Part shown: in pieces, positions 50,604 through 59,121 of the stretch | Layout: each line of letters starts with the position of its first letter | How positions within the stretch are numbered: position 1 is the stretch's first letter | Assembly: GCA_027491035.1 (NCBI GenBank) | Contig: JAIXWZ010000242.1 | Span: forward strand, 1 to 59,121 | From: Comamonadaceae bacterium | GTDB lineage: Bacteria; Pseudomonadota; Gammaproteobacteria; Burkholderiales; Burkholderiaceae_C | DNA length: 59,121 nucleotides | Direction of reading: 5' to 3' | Notes under the pieces: generated by a model | Told to the model about the DNA's origin: nothing | Seen by the model: the letters and a program-made list of their open reading frames with translations, nothing else | Database searches by the model: none | Made by a program: the position numbers and the translations under genes

Positions 50604-50668
50604 AGCGGCCGGTTGAAGCGGCTGGTTTAAGCGGCCGGTTTAAGCGGCCGGTTTAAGCGGCCGGTTGA
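50604..50668. repeat. five 13-bp tandem repeats covering the LysR gene stop
   Basis: Five adjacent copies of AGCGGCCGGTTTA (with variants ending TTGA, and one CTGG) occur at 50604, 50617, 50630, 50643 and 50656. They contain the TAA stop (50640-50642) of the LysR gene, and each has a near-palindromic CGGCCG core. Because 13 is not a multiple of three, copy-number change shifts the reading frame. Confidence 0.9.
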
Positions 50669-51608
50669 AATAGTGCGCGGGCAAGGCCCGGGCCACCTCG
50701 TTGATGGCTTGGGCCACCGCGCGCTGGGCGGGGTTGGGCGTGTGCGCCGCGATCGTCAGCGCCACAGCGCGCGGGATTTCGGGCTCCACAATGAGCGCCG
50801 CTTGCAGCGCCGCACCATCGCCCTGGCCGCCAATGGCCAAGGGCCCCAGGATGGTGTGTCCGGCGCCCATGCGCACCATCTGGCGCTGCATGATGAGCGA
50901 GTCGGCCTCCAGGGTGACCTGCAGCTCAAAGCCGTGCTCGCGCGCGGTACGGTCCAGGCTTTCGCGCCACCGGCTGTGGCGGCTGGGCAGAATCAAGCCG
51001 AGCCCGCGCAGGGCCGAAAACGGCACCCGGCGCTTGCGCGTCAGGCCATCGCCGGGCGGTCCGACCAAAAACGAGTCGACCTGCTGCAGCACCTGATCGT
51101 GCGGCTGCAATTGGCGGGTGTCGACATAACGGATGGCCATGTCGTAGCGGCCGCTGTCCAGGCCTTCCTGGATGCTGGCGTCGAGCCCCTCCTGAACCTT
51201 CACGCGCAGCAGCGGATAGCGCTGGCCAATGAGGACCAGCGCCGGGCACAGCAAGGGCTCCATGGCCGACGGCATGCAGGCCAGGTGCACCTGGCCGACG
51301 GGCATGCCGGCACCGGCCCGGATGTCCGCTTCGAGTTGCTCGGTGCTGCTGAGCCACTGCCGCACCTGGGGCAGCACCCACAGGCCCCAGGCGCTGAGCT
51401 GCAGGCCGCGCGCATGGCGGCTGAACAGGCGCTGGCCGCACAGGGCCTCGAGTTCGGCGAGCTGTCGGCTCAGCTGAGGCTGGGCCATCTCGCGCTGCAG
51501 CGCCACCCGGCTCATGCTGCCCTCTTCGGCCAGATCCAGAAACAGGCGCCACAGCGCTGGGCGCATCAAAGGGGGCGGGCTGGACGGGGCTTTGGGGGAG
51601 GGCTGCAT
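50640..51608 (-). CDS. LysR-family transcriptional regulator divergent from the hyuAB cluster
   Basis: A 322-residue LysR regulator. The N-terminal winged helix (about 12-70) has WRLFLDLAEEGSMSRVALQREMAQPQLSRQLAELEALCGQRLF. The periplasmic-binding-like effector domain covers about 95-310. ATG 51608 is preferred because the alternative ATG at 51638 would lie inside a palindrome (51621-51642) that is the probable operator. It is divergent from the hydantoinase A gene (122-base gap), so it likely controls that cluster. The C-terminal residues NRPLKPAA are encoded by the 13-bp tandem repeat. Confidence 0.9.
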   Translation of the reverse strand: MQPSPKAPSSPPPLMRPALWRLFLDLAEEGSMSRVALQREMAQPQLSRQLAELEALCGQRLFSRHARGLQLSAWGLWVLPQVRQWLSSTEQLEADIRAGAGMPVGQVHLACMPSAMEPLLCPALVLIGQRYPLLRVKVQEGLDASIQEGLDSGRYDMAIRYVDTRQLQPHDQVLQQVDSFLVGPPGDGLTRKRRVPFSALRGLGLILPSRHSRWRESLDRTAREHGFELQVTLEADSLIMQRQMVRMGAGHTILGPLAIGGQGDGAALQAALIVEPEIPRAVALTIAAHTPNPAQRAVAQAINEVARALPAHYFNRPLKPAA

Positions 51609-51620
51609 CCGTGGGTCTTG

Positions 51621-51642
51621 TGATATCAAAAATGTCATATCA
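51621..51642. promoter_or_regulatory. inverted repeat TGATAT-N10-ATATCA, candidate LysR operator
   Basis: A 22-base site with exact 6-bp half sites lies between the divergent LysR and hyuA starts, 89 bases from the hyuA ATG. It contains an internal palindrome (TGATATCA). Three copies of TGTCAT follow in the same gap (51633, 51656, 51665). LysR regulators normally bind such divergent intergenic sites. Confidence 0.45.
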
Positions 51643-51730
51643 AGTATGCCAGACTTGTCATTGATGTCATGGGGATGACCGCATACGATCCCCCGCATCC
51701 CAAACAAGCGCCGATGCAATCGGCTCCGGC

Positions 51731-53815
51731 ATGAGCAAGCTCCAACGTTACCGCGTGGCCGCCGATATCGGCGGCACCTTCACCGATGTGGCCGCCTTCG
51801 ACCAGTTGCAAGGCAAGCTGCTGCTGGGCAAGACCCTGACCACCCCCGGCCATCTGGTCGACGGGATTTTGGAGGGCCTGCGCAAGACCGGCCTGTCCCT
51901 GGATCAGGCCCACTTGTTCCTGCACGGCTCGACGGTGGCCATCAACACCATGCTCGAGCGCAGCGGCGCGCGCACCGCGCTGGTCACCACCCGCGGCTTT
52001 CGCGACATTTACGAGATCGGCCGCATCAACCGTCCCGACTCCTTCAATCTGCGCCATCGCAAGCACAGCCCGCTCGTTGAGCGCGACCTGCGCTTTGAAC
52101 TCGGTGAACGCCTGCTGGCCGATGGCTCTGTCCTCGAGCCGCTCGATGAGGCCGAACTGGCCGCCCTGGCGGCGCGTTTGAGCACCCTCGAACTGCAGGC
52201 CGTGGCGGTGCTGTTTCTGCACTCCTACCGCAACCCGGCGCACGAGCGCCGGGTGCGCGAGGTCTTGCAGCAGGCGCTGCCGGGGGTGTTTGTCTCGATT
52301 TCGTCCGACCTGTCGCAGGAGTACCGGGAATACGAGCGCACATCGACTGTGGTGGCCAATGCCTACATCGGCCCGCGCGTGGCGCAGTACCTCGGCCAGA
52401 TCGAGAGCACGCTCAAGCAAAGCCGTTTTGACGGACAGTTTTTGGTGGTGCAGTCCACCGGCGGGCTCTACAGCCTGGGTGAGGCGCGCAGCGATTGCGT
52501 GCGCATGATGGAGTCGGGCCCTGCCGCCGGCGTGATCGGCACGCAGGCGCTGTGCGAGGCCATGGGGCTGAGCCACGCCATCGCCTTTGACATGGGCGGC
52601 ACCACCGCCAAGGCCGGCGTGGTGCGCGACGGTCAGGCCCTGGTGGCCAACAGCGTCATGATCGGCGGCTACCTGACCGGCTTGCCTTTGCTCACGCCCA
52701 TGATCGACATCCACGAGGTGGGCACCGGGGGTGGCAGCATTGCCAGCCTGAGCGCCACGGGCGCGCTGCGCGTCGGGCCTCGCAGTGCCGGCGCAACGCC
52801 CGGGCCGGTGTGCTATGGCCTTGGCGGCACCGAGCCGACGGTCACCGATGCCAATTTGCTGCTCGGCCGCCTCGACCCCAAGCATTTTCTGGGCGGCGAG
52901 ATGGCGCTCGACAAGGCGGCCGCCCAGCGCGCGATGAAGGCGCGCATTGCCGATCCGCTGCGGCTTTCGGTGACGGCCGCCGCCATGGGCATTTTGCGCA
53001 TCGCGGCCGCTTCCATGTCGCATGCGGTCAAGGGGGTGACCACCGACCGCGGCCTCGATCCGGGCGCTTTTCCCAATTTGTTCGCCTACGGAGGCGCCGG
53101 GCCCCTGCACGCCACCATGGTCGCGCGCGAGCTCGCCTTGCCGCGGGTGATCATTCCGCGCGCGCCCGGGCACTTCTCGGCCTTTGGCATGCTGCTGGCC
53201 GACTTTCGCAAGGACGTGGTGCGCACCCAGTTCACCAGTCTGGCGCAGACCAGCGTCAGGCAGCTGTCGCTGTGGTTCAACGAGATCGAGACGCAGGCGC
53301 GCGCCTCGCTCAAGGCCTCGCAGCTGCGCGCGCGCAAGGTCGTGGTCCAGCGCTTCCTCGATATGCGCTACGTCGGGCAGGAGCATGCGGTGACGGTGGA
53401 AATCCCGGCATCGGCATTTGTGGGCAGCAGCAAGTCGCTCATCAAGCAGGCCTTTGACGAGGCCCACCGCGAGCGTTACGGCCGCGGTTCGCCGTCTGAG
53501 CCCGCCGAAATCGTCAGCATCCGCAGCGTCCTGACGGGCGTGCTCAAAAAGCCCTTGCTCGAACAGATCCCGGCTGGCAGCCGCACGCCGCCGCGCTCGG
53601 CCTGGGTCGGTGAGCGCCGCGCCTACTTCAGCGGCGCCGGCTGGCTGGCCACGCCCGTTTGGCGGCGCGAGGAACTCAAGGCGGGCAACGTGATTCGGGG
53701 CGCTGCCCTGATCGAGGAGCACGCCAGCACCACCGTGCTGCAGCCTGGCGACGTGCTGCGCGTCGACGCCCTGGGCAATTTGTGCATCGCCATCTCTCAA
53801 GGAGCCTCAGCATGA
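51731..53815 (+). CDS. hyuA: hydantoinase/oxoprolinase family protein, subunit A (HyuA-like)
   Basis: A 694-residue protein of the ATP-dependent hydantoinase A/oxoprolinase family. The ASKHA-type phosphate loop VAADIGGTFTDVAAFD is at about 11-26. A second loop GLSHAIAFDMGGTTAKAGVV and the block GTGGGSIASL follow. In this family subunit A activates a lactam, imide or ketone with ATP; subunit B completes the reaction. The length fits two-gene N-methylhydantoinase-type systems rather than fused 5-oxoprolinase (about 1290). The TGA overlaps the ATG of subunit B by four bases. Acetone or acetophenone carboxylases are related alternatives. Confidence 0.9.
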   Translation: MSKLQRYRVAADIGGTFTDVAAFDQLQGKLLLGKTLTTPGHLVDGILEGLRKTGLSLDQAHLFLHGSTVAINTMLERSGARTALVTTRGFRDIYEIGRINRPDSFNLRHRKHSPLVERDLRFELGERLLADGSVLEPLDEAELAALAARLSTLELQAVAVLFLHSYRNPAHERRVREVLQQALPGVFVSISSDLSQEYREYERTSTVVANAYIGPRVAQYLGQIESTLKQSRFDGQFLVVQSTGGLYSLGEARSDCVRMMESGPAAGVIGTQALCEAMGLSHAIAFDMGGTTAKAGVVRDGQALVANSVMIGGYLTGLPLLTPMIDIHEVGTGGGSIASLSATGALRVGPRSAGATPGPVCYGLGGTEPTVTDANLLLGRLDPKHFLGGEMALDKAAAQRAMKARIADPLRLSVTAAAMGILRIAAASMSHAVKGVTTDRGLDPGAFPNLFAYGGAGPLHATMVARELALPRVIIPRAPGHFSAFGMLLADFRKDVVRTQFTSLAQTSVRQLSLWFNEIETQARASLKASQLRARKVVVQRFLDMRYVGQEHAVTVEIPASAFVGSSKSLIKQAFDEAHRERYGRGSPSEPAEIVSIRSVLTGVLKKPLLEQIPAGSRTPPRSAWVGERRAYFSGAGWLATPVWRREELKAGNVIRGAALIEEHASTTVLQPGDVLRVDALGNLCIAISQGASA

Positions 53816-55611
53816 GAGCGCGTCAAACGGTTCAATCGCCTCAATCGGTTCGAACAGGCAAAGCCTCTGCGGCGCGCAAGGGCGCGGCATCGCCGCGGCG
53901 CAGCAAGGCGGTTGCCCGCATCGATCCGGTAACGGTCGAGCTGGTGCGCAACAGCCTGGTGGCCGCCACCGAAGAGATGAAGTCGGTGCTCATGCGCACC
54001 TCGTACAACATGATCATCTACGAGGCGCTCGATTTCACGGTCGGGCTGTTCGATCGGCAGGGACAAACCTTGTCGATCGGACTGGGCTTGCCGATGTTCA
54101 TTCGCGGCATGAGCGATGTGGTCAAGGGCAAGCTCGCGCACTGGGGGCTCGAGCAAATTCATCCCGACGACATCTTGCTCACCAACGATGCCTACGTGAC
54201 CGGCGCCCACCTGAACCACCTGACGTTTTCCATCCCCATCTTCCATGGTGGGCAGGTCGTGGCCTTTGCCACCTGCATGGCGCACTGGCAGGACATCGGC
54301 GGCATTCTCAATGGTGTGACCACCGACATTTATGCCGAAGGTCTGCAGATTCCCTACGTCAAGTACCACCGCAAGGGCGTGCTCAACGAGGAGCTGCAGG
54401 AGCTGATCTTGATGAATGTGCGGCGCCGCGACCGCGCTGCCGGTGATCTGGAGGCGCAGCTGTCGGCTTGCCGGGTGGGCGTCAAGCATGTGCAGCACAT
54501 GCTCGAGCGCCACGGGCTGGCCGCCTGGCAGGCTGCGATTGACAGCATCATGGACCACACCGAAGCCGAAGCCCGGGCGGTGGTGCGGGCCATGCCCGAC
54601 GGCGTCTATGAAGCCGAGTCCTTTATGGACGATGACGCGGTCGATCTGAACCAGCCGGTGCCCATCCGCGTCAAGGTGACCATACGCGGGGAGGAAATGA
54701 CCGTCGATTTGTCGGACATGAGTCCGCAGGTGCGCGGCTTTTTTAACTCTGGCGCCGGTGTGGCCTGTGCCCAGGTGGCTTTCAAATGCCTGACCTTGCC
54801 CTCGGACCATCCCATCAACGACGGCAACTTTCGACCGCTCAAGGTGGTGCTGCCGCCGGGCACTGTGGTCAGTGCGCTGCACCCGGCGCCGATGCGGGTG
54901 TGGATGACCTACCCGATGACGGTGGTCGACACCATCTTCAAGGCGCTCGCTCGGGCCATGCCTGAAGGCGTGATCGCCGGCCACCATGCCGACTTGATGA
55001 TCGCCAACGTCAACGGCATACACCCTCGTGACGGCAAGTTGTGGATCTATCTGGGCGGCCTGATCGGAGGTGGCTGGGGGGCCAAGCATGACGAGGACGG
55101 CGTCAATGTGGTGGTCTGCATGAACGATGGCGACACCCACAACGGCCCGAGCGAGCAAGTTGAAAACAAGTTCCCCTTGCTGGTGCGCTACTACCGCTTG
55201 CGCACCGATTCGGGCGGGGCAGGGCGCTTTCGTGGCGGGCTGGGTGCCGAGGCCGAGGTCATGGCGATGGCGCGCATCAATTGCCAGACCCGCAGCGACC
55301 GGGTGCACAACCTGCCCTGGGGTCTGGACGGCGGCGCGCCTGCGATGGGCAACCGGGTGGGTGTTCGCAAGAAAGACGGCACGCTCGTGATGCACGAGAC
55401 CGGCAAGGTCAATATTCGGCTCGAGCAGGGCGAAGCCTATGTGCTGCACTCCGGCGGCGGCGGCGGCTTTGGTCCGCCCCTCAAGCGAGATCGCCAAGCC
55501 GTGCTGCGTGACCTGCGGCTGGGCTACATCTCTGAAGATGCGGCGCGCGAGCACTACGGGCTGACCTTGGACGGCCAGAGCCAAGCGCGCCCCGCCAAAA
55601 AGCGGTCTTGA
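53812..55611 (+). CDS. hyuB: hydantoinase/oxoprolinase family protein, subunit B (HyuB-like)
   Basis: A 599-residue partner of the preceding gene. The Ser/Arg/Lys-rich N-terminus (1-35) precedes the HyuB core: DPVTVELVRNSLVAATEEMKS, LLTNDAYVTGAHLNHLTFSIPIF, YPMTVVDTIFKALARAMPEGV and the Gly-rich end LHSGGGGGFGPPLKRD. Expression is coupled to hyuA through an ATGA overlap. Together they should form a heteromeric ATP-dependent amidohydrolase or carboxylase acting in the cytoplasm. The substrate is unknown; neighbours suggest an organic acid or lactam imported through Bug proteins. Confidence 0.9.
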   Translation: MRARQTVQSPQSVRTGKASAARKGAASPRRSKAVARIDPVTVELVRNSLVAATEEMKSVLMRTSYNMIIYEALDFTVGLFDRQGQTLSIGLGLPMFIRGMSDVVKGKLAHWGLEQIHPDDILLTNDAYVTGAHLNHLTFSIPIFHGGQVVAFATCMAHWQDIGGILNGVTTDIYAEGLQIPYVKYHRKGVLNEELQELILMNVRRRDRAAGDLEAQLSACRVGVKHVQHMLERHGLAAWQAAIDSIMDHTEAEARAVVRAMPDGVYEAESFMDDDAVDLNQPVPIRVKVTIRGEEMTVDLSDMSPQVRGFFNSGAGVACAQVAFKCLTLPSDHPINDGNFRPLKVVLPPGTVVSALHPAPMRVWMTYPMTVVDTIFKALARAMPEGVIAGHHADLMIANVNGIHPRDGKLWIYLGGLIGGGWGAKHDEDGVNVVVCMNDGDTHNGPSEQVENKFPLLVRYYRLRTDSGGAGRFRGGLGAEAEVMAMARINCQTRSDRVHNLPWGLDGGAPAMGNRVGVRKKDGTLVMHETGKVNIRLEQGEAYVLHSGGGGGFGPPLKRDRQAVLRDLRLGYISEDAAREHYGLTLDGQSQARPAKKRS

Positions 55612-55625
55612 GCCGAGCTTGCACG

Positions 55626-56048
55626 ATGACACCTGTTCAAGAACTGCGCCGCCGTCCTGCTGCTCGGGCTTCGCTGCGGCCCACCCCGGCCCAGGTACAG
55701 GCCAAAGTCCAAGCCCAAGTCCAGGCCCGCGCTTTGCTCATGTGCGGGCGCTGGATGCGCATCAGCCGGCGTGGCCTTTCGGTCATGGCCGGTTGCCTGT
55801 GCGGCTTTGATACGGCCATCGAGATCGGCGAGCTCGATGCGATGGTGCTCGACTACCTCGGCGATCGCCACGCCGGGCAGGCCGCGGCCGAGCAGTTCAT
55901 TGCCGGCTTTGCGCAGCAGGGCAACGGCGTGCTTCGCTTGCTCCAGGCGCTGGCGCAAGGCGGCCATGGGCTCGATGCGCGCGCGGCCGACGCCATGCTC
56001 GCTGCGCTGGAGCCTACGATTTCATCGATCGAAGAGCAGCACCTGTAA
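55626..56048 (+). CDS. unrecognised 140-residue protein between hyuB and a Bug gene
   Basis: I do not recognise a family. The first 40 residues are rich in Arg, Ala, Pro and Gln (AQVQAKVQAQVQARA), then comes ALLMCGRWMRISRRGLSVMAGCLCGFDTAIEIGELD with three Cys, and the rest is helical and acidic. No signal peptide or clear membrane helix. Codon use has high GC at third positions over the latter two thirds, as in real genes of this window. ATG 55626 lies 14 bases after the hyuB stop; a TTG at 55608 overlapping that stop is an alternative. The next gene follows 42 bases later. It might be a small subunit of the HyuAB enzyme, by position only. Confidence 0.65.
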   Translation: MTPVQELRRRPAARASLRPTPAQVQAKVQAQVQARALLMCGRWMRISRRGLSVMAGCLCGFDTAIEIGELDAMVLDYLGDRHAGQAAAEQFIAGFAQQGNGVLRLLQALAQGGHGLDARAADAMLAALEPTISSIEEQHL

Positions 56049-56090
56049 GCTGCCGCATCGCCCTTGACACAACCTGAAGGAGACCGCGTC

Positions 56091-57065
56091 ATGAACACCC
56101 GTCAATTTCTGAATCTGGCCGCTGCCTTGGCGCTGGCTGTCCCTGGCCTGGCCACGGCGCAGGCGGCCCGCTTTCCCGACCAACCCCTGCGCATGATCGT
56201 GCCCTTCGCACCGGGCGGCGGCGTCGACACCGCGGCACGTCTGGTGGCGCGGCAGATGCAGACGCGCCTGGGCGTCTCGGTGGTGGTGGAAAACCGCGCG
56301 GGCGCCAACGGCACGGTCGGCGGCAAGTCGGTGCAGACGGCGCCGGCCGATGGTTACACGCTCTTGTTTTCGGGCGCCACCCATGTGCTGGCCAAACAGG
56401 TGATGGCCAAGCCGCCCTACGATCCGGTCACCGATTTCGCGCCGGTCGCGCGCGTGGGCGAAGCGCCGCTGCTGATGGTCATCTCGCCGAGCCTGCCCGA
56501 GCAAAAGCTGACTGAGGTGGTGCAGTCTGCACGCAACAATCCGAACAAGTGGACCGCTGCGCTGCCGGCCATGGGCGCCCCCAGCCATCTGGCGACCTTG
56601 CTGCTGGCGCAAAAGTCCAACCTCAAGCTCACCATGGTGCCTTACAAGGGCACCGCACCGGCCCTGGTCGATGTGGCCGGCGGGCATTCGCAAATCCTCA
56701 TGGATTCGATCATCGCCTTGCTGCCCATGGCCAAAACGGGCAAGGTCAAGGCGGTGGTGACCACGTCGGCCAAGCGCAGCGCCATTGCGCCCGATGTGCC
56801 CACCGCGCAGGAAAGCGGCTTCCCCGGCTTGGTCTACACCACCTGGTACGGCATCTGGGCACCGCTGGGCACCCCGGCCGATCGGGTGCAGCTGCTCAAT
56901 GCGGCCGTCAACGAGGCGGTCAATGAGTTAGTGCGCAGCAACGCGTTTTCTGCACTGGGCGTCGATGGCATCACCGAGAGCGTGGAGCAGTTCACCCGCT
57001 TTATTGCCAGCGACGTGGCGCAAAACGCCGAACTGCTGCGCGCGGCCGGTTTCAAGCCCGAGTAA
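56091..57065 (+). CDS. Bug-family (tripartite tricarboxylate transporter) solute-binding protein
   Basis: A 324-residue periplasmic binding protein. Signal peptide about 1-25 (LNLAAALALAVPGLATAQA). The Bug-family blocks include FPDQPLRMIVPFAPGGGVDTAARL, VENRAGANGTVGGKSV, and VPYKGTAPALVDVAGGHSQILMDS. A strong ribosome-binding site (GAAGGAGA) precedes ATG 56091. Ligands of this family are carboxylates, amino acids or related acids; no tctA/tctB permease genes are in the window, which is usual for Bug genes. It probably serves the HyuAB pathway. Confidence 0.92.
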   Translation: MNTRQFLNLAAALALAVPGLATAQAARFPDQPLRMIVPFAPGGGVDTAARLVARQMQTRLGVSVVVENRAGANGTVGGKSVQTAPADGYTLLFSGATHVLAKQVMAKPPYDPVTDFAPVARVGEAPLLMVISPSLPEQKLTEVVQSARNNPNKWTAALPAMGAPSHLATLLLAQKSNLKLTMVPYKGTAPALVDVAGGHSQILMDSIIALLPMAKTGKVKAVVTTSAKRSAIAPDVPTAQESGFPGLVYTTWYGIWAPLGTPADRVQLLNAAVNEAVNELVRSNAFSALGVDGITESVEQFTRFIASDVAQNAELLRAAGFKPE

Positions 57066-57069
57066 GCCC

Positions 57070-58176
57070 ATGGGCAAGGGGCAGTTGCATGCCGACGAGT
57101 CGCGCTGGCTGACTGATCCGGTCACGGGCGCGCGCCTGCGACAGGTGACCTCTGCCCCCTGCATCCACCACCACCCCTTCTTTTTTGTGCCGGCCTATGA
57201 CCGGGACATGCGCTATCTGTTCTTCGTCTCGCACCGAAGCGGCCGACCGCAAATTTACGCGCAGCTGCGGCAAAGTGGCCAGTTGCTGCAGCTGACCGAC
57301 CACGACGATTTGATCGCCTGGTCCTTGCATCCCACGCGAGATGGCCAACACCTGCTGTTCACCACGCGGCGCGGCGCCTTTCGGCTGCACCTCGACAATT
57401 TGCAGGAAGACTTGCTCTACGCCTTCGAGCAGCAGCCCAACCAGCAGCCCAATGAGCTGCCCGGCATGGTCGGTGCGGCGATGGGCACAACCACCGTGTC
57501 GCACGATGACCGCTGGTGGGCCATACCCCTGCGCCAGCAGGCTCGCTCGCGCATGCTGTTCATCGACCTGAAAAATGGCCGCAGCCACATCACGCTGGAC
57601 AATGCGAGCATTGGCCATCCGCAGTTTTGCCCCGATGATCCCGAGCTGATTTTTTATGCCGGGCCCATGACCGACCGCCTGTGGATCGCCTCAGTCGACG
57701 GGCGCCTTAACGAGAGGCTCTACCAGCGCGCGCACGAGCTGCAGTGGATCACCCACGAGAGCTGGATTGCCGGCTCCTTCGAGGTCGCCTTTGTCGACTG
57801 GCCCCACGGCATGCAGGCCATCGATGTGCGCACCCGTGCCGTGCGCTCCATCACCGACTTCCCGGCCTGGCACGCCTATCCCGACGACAGCGGCCAGATG
57901 TTTGTGTGTGACACCACCTTTCCCGATCGGGGTCTGCACCTGTTTGGCGCCCGGCAGGGCGGCGCTCCCGCGCGGTTGCTGTGCCTGTCGCAAGCCAGCT
58001 CGGTCGGTGCGCACTGGGCCCACCCCTTCCCCTACAACAACGGCCCGGTGGAGGTCTACGCGCCGCAGCACACCCATCCGCATCCGCGCTTTTCACCCGA
58101 CGGGCAGTGGGTGCTGTTCACCTCGGACCGCAGCGGGCACGCGCAACTCTATGAGTGCGAAGTGCGCATTGATTGA
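57070..58176 (+). CDS. oligogalacturonate lyase-like beta-propeller protein
   Basis: A 368-residue seven-bladed propeller protein of the oligogalacturonate lyase family. The metal-site pattern is kept: Gln333-x2-His336-x-His338 in APQHTHPHPRFSPDG, and His268 (AWHAYPDDSGQM), at spacings close to the Gln/His/His/His set I recall for the Yersinia enzyme. SPDGQWVLFTSDRSGHAQLY is a propeller blade motif. No signal peptide, so cytoplasmic like Ogl. It lies four bases after the Bug gene and ends directly before the DUF1445 gene. It may cleave or eliminate an uronate-like or other acidic substrate; no pectinase genes are nearby. Confidence 0.78.
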   Translation: MGKGQLHADESRWLTDPVTGARLRQVTSAPCIHHHPFFFVPAYDRDMRYLFFVSHRSGRPQIYAQLRQSGQLLQLTDHDDLIAWSLHPTRDGQHLLFTTRRGAFRLHLDNLQEDLLYAFEQQPNQQPNELPGMVGAAMGTTTVSHDDRWWAIPLRQQARSRMLFIDLKNGRSHITLDNASIGHPQFCPDDPELIFYAGPMTDRLWIASVDGRLNERLYQRAHELQWITHESWIAGSFEVAFVDWPHGMQAIDVRTRAVRSITDFPAWHAYPDDSGQMFVCDTTFPDRGLHLFGARQGGAPARLLCLSQASSVGAHWAHPFPYNNGPVEVYAPQHTHPHPRFSPDGQWVLFTSDRSGHAQLYECEVRID

Positions 58177-58185
58177 GTGGGCACC

Positions 58186-58989
58186 ATGGACCTGAGCCAT
58201 CTGCCCGCGCTCGAGCCCGATCCGCAGGCCCACGAGCCCAGGCGCCTGCGAGGCCTGATCGCCAAGGGCAGCATCACCGGCACCAGCCGCGGTTTGGCGC
58301 TGGGTTACCTGCAGTGCAACCTGGCCATGGTGCCGCAATCGCATGCCGGCGACTTTCTGGAGTACTGCAAGCGCAACGCCAGGGCCTGCCCGGTGCTGGA
58401 GGTCACGGCGCCAGGCCACACCGAGCCCAGGCGATTGGCTCCCGGCGCCGACCTGCGCACCGACTGCGCCCGCTACGCGCTCTGGCGCGACGGGCATCGG
58501 CTGCCCGATTGCCATGACATCACCGAGCACTGGCGAGCCGATCTGGTCAGCTTTTTGATTGGCTCGGGCATCACCTTCGACGAGGCCTTTGAGCAAGCGG
58601 GCATTGGAACGGGCCAACACCGGTGGGTGATCCGCAGCCAGTTGCCGACCGTGGCGGTGGGGCCGTTTCAAGGCCCGCTCATCGTCACGATGCGCTGGCT
58701 CACGCCGGCGCAGGCCGAGCTGGCCAGTCAGATCAGCGCCCGATTTGTGCACAACCACGGCGCACCGCTGCATATGGGCGATCCAGGTGCGATCGGGGCC
58801 GACCTGGCCCACCCTCTTTTTGGCGGGCCGGTTCCCGAAAAGCCCAAGGAACTCGTCGAAGTGTTCTGGGCCTGCGGCGTCACGCCCCAGGCCGCCGCAG
58901 AATCGGCCCACCTGCCTTTGTTTATTGCACATGCGCCGGCTCACAGCTTCATCACCGATGTGCGCGCCGCAAGCCTGATGACCCCCTGA
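58186..58989 (+). CDS. DUF1445 family protein (D-glutamate cyclase / putative hydro-lyase)
   Basis: A 267-residue cytoplasmic protein of the DUF1445 family. The N-terminus LRGLIAKGSITGTSRGLALGYLQCNLAMVP and the core VSFLIGSGITFDEAFEQAGI are characteristic, as are RFVHNHGAPLHMGDPGAIG and FWACGVTPQAAAESAHLPLFIAHAPAHSF. The mammalian homologue (DGLUCY) converts D-glutamate to 5-oxo-D-proline; bacterial members are often called hydro-lyases without proof. I use ATG 58186; a GTG at 58177 starts directly after the previous stop. It belongs to the hyuAB cluster by spacing. Confidence 0.88.
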   Translation: MDLSHLPALEPDPQAHEPRRLRGLIAKGSITGTSRGLALGYLQCNLAMVPQSHAGDFLEYCKRNARACPVLEVTAPGHTEPRRLAPGADLRTDCARYALWRDGHRLPDCHDITEHWRADLVSFLIGSGITFDEAFEQAGIGTGQHRWVIRSQLPTVAVGPFQGPLIVTMRWLTPAQAELASQISARFVHNHGAPLHMGDPGAIGADLAHPLFGGPVPEKPKELVEVFWACGVTPQAAAESAHLPLFIAHAPAHSFITDVRAASLMTP

Positions 58990-59027
58990 TCTACCCATTC
59001 CTCGACCCTCTACCCAAGGAGACTGCC

Positions 59028-59121
59028 ATGCAAGACGCCTTCATTTCCCGCCGCCAATGGCTGGCCATCGCCGGTGGCACCACGCTAGGGGCTCAAGCCT
59101 GGGCTCAAGGTTACCCCGATC
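59028..59121 (+). CDS. second Bug-like binding protein with Tat-type signal (partial)
   Basis: Only 31 residues are inside the window. The N-terminus has FISRRQWLAIAGG, a twin-arginine-like motif, followed by a hydrophobic stretch and a probable cleavage site near AQAWAQ. The mature start YPD resembles the first residues of many Bug proteins. An AAGGAG ribosome-binding site lies 8 bases before ATG 59028. The rest is outside the window, so the family is a guess. Confidence 0.55.
   Translation, partial: MQDAFISRRQWLAIAGGTTLGAQAWAQGYPD

Follow-up and report, generated by a model that had tools for sequence, protein, structure and literature searches.

A HyuAB gene cluster with an OGL-like lyase and DUF1445 in a Comamonadaceae bacterium: a possible operon for the catabolism of a uronate-like acid

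Catabolic clusters often contain hydantoinase/oxoprolinase-type (HyuA and HyuB) genes and DUF1445 genes, mostly without an assigned function. Here, we describe a cluster in a Comamonadaceae bacterium (assembly GCA_027491035.1) in which both accompany an oligogalacturonate-lyase-like (OGL-like) protein and a Bug-type periplasmic binding protein. The window analyzed, 59,121 nucleotides long, is the entire contig JAIXWZ010000242.1 (C34, ending at 59121) of a 3.67-Mb genome in 242 contigs, which has only five matches to PF02538 and one to PF07286. The last genes of the window form an operon-like run on the plus strand, with a divergent LysR gene in front of it:

50640..51608, minus strand: LysR-type regulator (Pfam LysR_substrate, 101.6 bits; HTH_1, 53 bits)
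51644..51686, no strand: candidate LysR operator, an inverted repeat GTATGC ... GCATAC between LysR and HyuA (motif search)
51731..53815, plus strand: HyuA, ATP-binding subunit (Pfam Hydantoinase_A, 311 bits; alignment to 6yra_A)
53812..55611, plus strand: HyuB, metal-site subunit with the motif GAHLNH (Pfam Hydantoinase_B, 500 bits; alignment to 6yra_B)
55626..56048, plus strand: small helical protein after HyuB, with a conserved C-x-C (homologs at the equivalent position)
56091..57065, plus strand: Bug1, a Bug/TctC periplasmic binding protein (Pfam TctC, PF03401, 182 bits against a cut-off of 27)
57070..58176, plus strand: OGL-like beta-propeller (Pfam Pectate_lyase22, PF14583, 59.4 bits against a cut-off of 30)
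58186..58989, plus strand: DUF1445 protein (D-Glu_cyclase, PF07286) of the SGITFD type (115.3 bits against a cut-off of 25)
59028..59121, plus strand: gene with its ATG at 59028, cut by the contig end at 59121 after 94 bases (31 codons)

HyuA and HyuB overlap by 4 bases, and the gaps that follow measure 14 bases (HyuB to the small protein), 42 (small protein to Bug1), 4 (Bug1 to OGL), 9 (OGL to DUF1445), and 38 (DUF1445 to the next ATG), none exceeding 42 bases. The initial annotation had proposed these genes, in this order, after a divergent LysR; all of them are in place, and the families score above their Pfam cut-offs, except the small protein and the cut gene. The operon-like unit itself is well supported. 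A second Bug gene had also been claimed at the end of the run. A further gene does follow DUF1445, and its start resembles a signal peptide; only 94 bases (31 codons) of it are visible, and the scanned frame that runs into it gave no Pfam match. It is probably a second Bug, because a Bug-labeled frame follows DUF1445 in the related loci (L numbers hereafter) L042 (the same as L054), L053, and L055.

The top profile matches of the OGL-like protein are the oligogalacturonate lyases 3pe7 (E value of 4e-25) and 3c5m (6e-23). Its predicted model (pLDDT of 86.9) has 3pe7, a structure solved with manganese, as its best fold match in the PDB (Foldseek E value of 4e-24; TM scores of 0.81 and 0.79). Residues R203, H229, H268, Q333, H336, and H338 align with Arg217, His242, His287, Gln350, His353, and His355 of 3pe7, and this set is conserved in 76 to 78 of the 78 OGL loci described below. 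We take these residues to be the catalytic Arg and His together with a His-Gln-His-His metal site; the roles of the catalytic and metal residues in oligogalacturonate lyase were reportedly described by Abbott et al. in 2010. Judging from residues and fold, the protein is a predicted lyase that probably works as PL22 enzymes do.

To follow the OGL-like family, we scanned its alignment (A1) against contigs from one genome per species, which yielded at least 80 loci, or 81 with the window. Dropping L129, L130, and L131, which hold only OGL fragments, left 78 usable loci; L041 and L042, repeat records of L065 and L054, stand outside this number. Neighbors were labeled with profiles built on clusters of reading frames. 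HyuAB was counted when HyuA or HyuB lay on either strand anywhere in the locus, and DHDPS when a gene of this family lay on the same strand within 8 kb; some loci are truncated by contig ends. On these terms, 23 of the 78 loci have HyuAB, 38 have DHDPS, none has both, and 17 have neither; a DHDPS label is absent on either strand from all 23 HyuAB loci. DUF1445 occurs in 27 loci, 19 of them with HyuAB, 5 with DHDPS, and 3 with neither. Among the 48 loci with at least 5 kb on both flanks, the corresponding figures are 14 with HyuAB, 29 with DHDPS, and 5 with neither. The linkage proposed by the initial annotation depended on the families co-occurring elsewhere, and these counts show that they do.

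The arrangement of the genes varies among lineages. A DUF1445 gene is present in 9 of 41 genomes (the window's own and 40 relatives). The one in a genome of the same genus, G007, scores low (128 bits, with 117 for the window and 211 to 236 for the others), and its contig (G007:C8, locus L042) repeats the order HyuB, small protein, Bug, OGL, DUF1445, and Bug, followed by an FAH-family gene. Many alphaproteobacterial loci have the order OGL-DUF1445-HyuA-HyuB, and the usual order in Rhizobiales-type loci is IclR, importer, OGL, DUF1445, HyuA, and HyuB. Rhodobacterales loci mostly carry LacI, DHDPS, TAXI, TRAP, and OGL, and Chloroflexi loci mostly carry ABC permeases, DHDPS, OGL, and Gfo/Idh/MocA. 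The importers that adjoin OGL are of three types, namely, Bug, TAXI-TRAP, and NMT1-type. The DHDPS-family and Gfo/Idh/MocA neighbors, which belong to families frequent in sugar-acid pathways, sit in loci without HyuAB. The cluster is also present in genomes that are not metagenome assembled, those of Pseudolabrys sp. Root1462 (L077) and Roseomonas sp. AR75 (L069).

Three further observations concern these loci. First, the OGL-like family extends to Poribacteria, Chloroflexi/Anaerolineae, Planctomycetota, and one Verrucomicrobiota genome (L073, L080, L083, L085, L088-L090, L092-L094, L117, and others); these loci often carry a DHDPS-family gene and Gfo/Idh/MocA oxidoreductases, probably as part of a wider sugar-acid pathway. 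Second, HyuAB is followed by a DUF993 gene, an EamA-type transporter, and a TetR-like regulator in six Rhizobiales-type loci (L063, L066, L067, L077, L126, and L132). Third, an Amidohydro_2-labeled gene adjoins OGL in L059, L060, L064, L065, and L069, four of which have neither HyuAB nor a same-strand DHDPS nearby; the L060 protein is close to decarboxylases.

The HyuAB pair of the window contains all four Pfam domains of its family (Hydant_A_N, Hydantoinase_A, Hydant_A_C, and Hydantoinase_B). Aligned to 6yra_A, HyuA retains the Asp pair of the ATP site (equivalents of CapA Asp11 and Asp295) and has Lys at the equivalent of the channel-flanking Asp302. Aligned to 6yra_B, HyuB retains the metal ligands Asp41, His99, and His124 and has His at the equivalent of Asp102. 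According to PMC8453981, His99, Asp102, and His124 are fully conserved among the carboxylases, hydantoinases, and oxoprolinases compared there, and the metal tetrad of the family is Asp(Glu)-His-Asp-His; the window HyuB departs from it at the third ligand, which is His. Judged from the alignments, the altered tetrad is a departure of a subfamily in which the remaining HyuAB features hold. We call the combination of an Asp-His-His-His site in HyuB with the channel Lys in HyuA "KH-type." The closest NCBIfam models are those of the caprolactamase subunits (521.1 and 298.4 bits, below the 1000-bit equivalog cut-offs of NF050156 and NF050157), followed by carboxylase subunits (309 and 106 bits, also below their cut-offs). 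We found no assigned function for the KH-type subfamily.

The KH type is a minority form, and it is the only one found with OGL. The Asp-His-His-His site is present in all 24 readable OGL-linked HyuB rows (22 distinct loci and two repeat rows; one further row is incomplete), while the 32 readable background rows include 31 with Asp-His-Asp-His (L048 and L146 represent a single gene; three more rows are incomplete). The sole background row with the His form, L162, is the same gene as L218 and has no OGL near it. Lys in HyuA accompanies His in HyuB in all 21 OGL-linked loci in which both genes could be read, in L162, and in all 15 KH-type regions without OGL considered below. Where background regions combine an HxxD HyuB with a readable HyuA (36 regions, some of which repeat one gene), this position is Asp in 34 and Lys in 2; three more lack a readable HyuA, and L219, a control from the window's own genome, has Asp with HxxD. 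The Lys is not wholly restricted to the His form, since the two exceptions (L147 and L151) pair it with HxxD. In 300 genomes of the order, 13, the window's included, have a HyuB relative of at least 55% identity, and among the matches listed none falls between 39 and 55%. As a side observation, an FAH-family gene related to maleylpyruvate hydrolase (L042:6362-7294) lies near KH-type HyuAB, as does, in a different setting, a frame whose N-terminus is FAH-like by eye (L231:7917-8840); this gene may perhaps provide a downstream step.

The DUF1445 proteins of OGL loci are likewise distinct, and we refer to them as SGITFD-type. In a tree of 50 rows (two of them repeats), a branch with an SH-aLRT value (a likelihood ratio test of branch support) of 100 separates the 28 OGL-linked rows from 22 canonical rows, the latter all from one order. 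Eight alignment columns separate the two groups (at least 85% in each), including SGITFD in the linked versus CSF(T/S)FE in the canonical rows. The loop that follows is 34 residues long in all 19 linked rows that could be read and 39 in all 24 such canonical rows (11 and 2 further rows, respectively, were unreadable), a shortening that may reflect a different substrate. L254, which has no OGL, carries yet another motif in its DUF1445. The window protein was also aligned to 3db9 and 2pif, and it scores 260.8 bits with the "putative hydro-lyase" model NF003969, under the equivalog cut-off of 324.

We also read the surroundings of canonical DUF1445 genes. An ATP-dependent oxoprolinase-type gene is near in 13 of 26 such regions: in 11, a frame as long as a fused HyuA-HyuB matches the HyuA profile within ~4.2 kb, and PxpC adjoins DUF1445 in 2 further regions. 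For half of the regions read, these neighbors support a link of DUF1445 with ATP-driven ring opening. YcsI of Bacillus subtilis is presumably a DUF1445 protein. A B. subtilis operon contains ycsI together with the pxpABC genes, according to PMC10448178.

The small protein matches no Pfam or NCBIfam family above cut-off, and its homologs, 34 to 39% identical, occupy the equivalent position in other Comamonadaceae loci (L054, L055, L056, and L130), with C-x-C invariant across the five aligned sequences. Two regions in which no OGL was found, L221 (95 bits) and L230 (44 bits), also match its profile; the protein seems to travel with HyuAB rather than with OGL. Its model is helical (pLDDT of 80.7), and a fold search gave no informative match. 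Relatives of the LysR gene occupy the equivalent position in L055 and L130. Upstream of HyuA, the pattern GTATGC-N20..60-GCATAC has its single occurrence in the window, with a spacer of 31; L055 has the pair as well, at a spacer of 40, and L130 has a near version, GTATAT ... GCATAC. We regard it as a candidate LysR operator.

Taken together, these genes may constitute a single operon for the catabolism of an acidic, uronate-like compound, handled by import, beta-elimination, cyclization or dehydration, and ATP-dependent ring opening; we give this reading a probability of roughly 0.42. The LysR regulator would respond to the compound or a metabolite, and the Bug proteins, as expected from their family, would capture the acid for an importer. 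The OGL-like protein would then catalyze a manganese-dependent, His-catalyzed beta-elimination next to a carboxylate, as in oligogalacturonate lyase acting on digalacturonate. The SGITFD-type DUF1445 protein may dehydrate or cyclize the product, or act in reverse, as the D-glutamate cyclase label and the frequent company of oxoprolinases would suggest. Finally, HyuA would use ATP to phosphorylate a ring or keto form, which HyuB would hydrolyze through its Asp-His-His-His site; an acidic intermediate would be compatible with the Lys of the HyuA channel. In related clusters, the place of HyuAB may be taken by a DHDPS-family enzyme. We infer the substrate, the order of the steps, the reactions on the true substrate, and co-regulation. 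The initial annotation had envisaged one pathway that imports an acidic compound and acts on a cyclic amide or uronate-like ring. Recurrence, the conserved OGL residues, and three kinds of importer binding proteins back its first part, an operon-like unit for an acidic compound, while the ring and the step order remain predictions.

Several results weigh against this reading. DUF1445 accompanies DHDPS, not HyuAB, in 5 loci, and no DUF1445 was seen in 4 of the 23 HyuAB loci. The activity of a D-glutamate cyclase, the interconversion of D-glutamate and 5-oxo-D-proline, is for bacterial PF07286 proteins a family label. By count, HyuAB and DHDPS exclude each other (Fisher p of 3e-9); on the OGL tree, the exclusion comes down to only three independent pairs, is not significant, and is confounded by phylogeny, so that replacement of one by the other is only a suggestion. 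KH-type HyuAB also occurs in 12 Burkholderiales genomes in regions with neither OGL nor DUF1445 (15 regions, L218 and L220-L233); at least 4 of these regions are on contigs of 11 kb or less, and one genome (G161) has OGL on another contig. A Bug-labeled frame is present in 13 of these 15 regions and a LysR-labeled frame in 4; L221 consists of LysR, HyuA, HyuB, the small protein, and two Bug genes alone. Since such units exist, HyuAB may have a substrate of its own. In favor of the reading, OGL-linked HyuB is always of the KH type although a HyuB tree of 22 OGL-linked rows and 15 others (L074 was left out as short) does not unite the linked rows in one clade, requiring five changes (approximately unbiased [AU] test, p of 1e-52 against a single clade). 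The linked rows form a Comamonadaceae group and a mainly Rhizobiales group, which includes one row without OGL (L226), and L069 and L071 fall among the rows without OGL. Yet this scatter could reflect one early joining followed by losses as an alternative to repeated joining. Whichever history holds, the alignments place OGL solely with the minority KH-type HyuAB, which argues for a shared pathway.

An alternative that we consider unlikely, although it is the next most probable after the operon for a uronate-like acid, is that HyuAB acts first, opening or hydrolyzing a cyclic amide, imide, or lactone of the imported acid, and thereby supplies the compound on which the OGL-like lyase and DUF1445 act. 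HyuAB heads the operon in the window, its solved homologs are an N-methylhydantoinase and a caprolactamase, and the KH-type units without OGL, mostly with a Bug-labeled frame, would make OGL-DUF1445 a possible later extension. However, the Rhizobiales-type order places the importer, OGL, and DUF1445 before HyuAB, and 55 of the 78 OGL loci, some of them cut by contig ends, have no HyuAB, so the substrate of OGL need not derive from it.

It is improbable that KH-type HyuAB, instead of hydrolyzing its substrate, carboxylates an enol or keto acid in an ATP-dependent manner similar to that of acetone or acetophenone carboxylase, with the small C-x-C protein as an accessory subunit. HyuAB is homologous to carboxylases as well as to hydrolases, an OGL reaction would, from what is known of the family, yield a keto acid, a relative of the small protein follows HyuB even in L221 and L230, and the FAH-type frames of L042 and (by eye, at its N-terminus) L231 lie near. 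Yet NCBIfam ranks caprolactamase over carboxylase subunits, all below cut-off, and nothing among the matches listed connects the small protein with a carboxylase subunit by sequence or fold. Least probable is a chance proximity of two pathways without common intermediates, LysR-HyuAB-small protein-Bug and OGL-DUF1445(-Bug), perhaps co-regulated: each half is found without the other, but OGL-linked HyuB falls in separate parts of its tree and is nevertheless KH-type in every readable case, and the DUF1445 proteins of OGL loci group apart from the canonical ones.

The operon for a uronate-like acid remains our preferred reading. In the literature searched, the LysR-HyuAB-OGL-DUF1445 combination was not found as a described pathway; each family is known, and, as far as that literature reaches, the KH-type HyuAB and SGITFD-type DUF1445 are undescribed variants. 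The cluster connects a distinct DUF1445 clade, together with a HyuAB whose metal site is altered, to a lyase family of known chemistry, which narrows the search to acids open to beta-elimination. If the reading is true, this catabolic route would operate in Comamonadaceae and Rhizobiales, and a version of it with DHDPS for the missing HyuAB would extend to Rhodobacterales, Chloroflexi, and Poribacteria. Given its unusual active site, HyuAB may perform a reaction not yet known. A bolder and doubtful proposal is that KH-type HyuAB is an ATP-dependent class with new chemistry on the acidic product of the OGL lyase and DUF1445, defining a route for uronate-like acids in which ATP-driven ring opening by HyuAB and a DHDPS-family enzyme solve the same step in different bacteria.

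Four known systems offer comparisons. The PL22 oligogalacturonate lyases (3pe7 and 3c5m) share the beta-propeller fold and the six catalytic and metal residues, but the window protein is only 20 to 22% identical to them, and the OGL-like family has a conserved HHHPFF motif of its own. The CapAB caprolactamase and N-methylhydantoinase (6yra and 7hk5) match both subunits over nearly their full length and share the ATP-site Asp pair and three metal ligands; in contrast to CapAB, the window has His for Asp102 and Lys for Asp302 and misses the CapA and CapB cut-offs of NCBIfam. The 5-oxoprolinase systems, whether OPLAH-type fused HyuAB or PxpABC, also often have DUF1445 alongside, whereas the window encodes HyuA and HyuB in two genes, with an altered metal site, next to lyase and Bug genes. 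Finally, the family known as DUF1445, "putative hydro-lyase," or D-glutamate cyclase (PF07286; 3db9, 2pif, and YcsI) shares the Pfam match, the core motifs HGxP and FWACGVTP, and the frequent proximity of oxoprolinase genes; unlike its canonical members, the window protein has SGITFD and the 34-residue loop, belongs to a clade apart, and misses the NF003969 cut-off.

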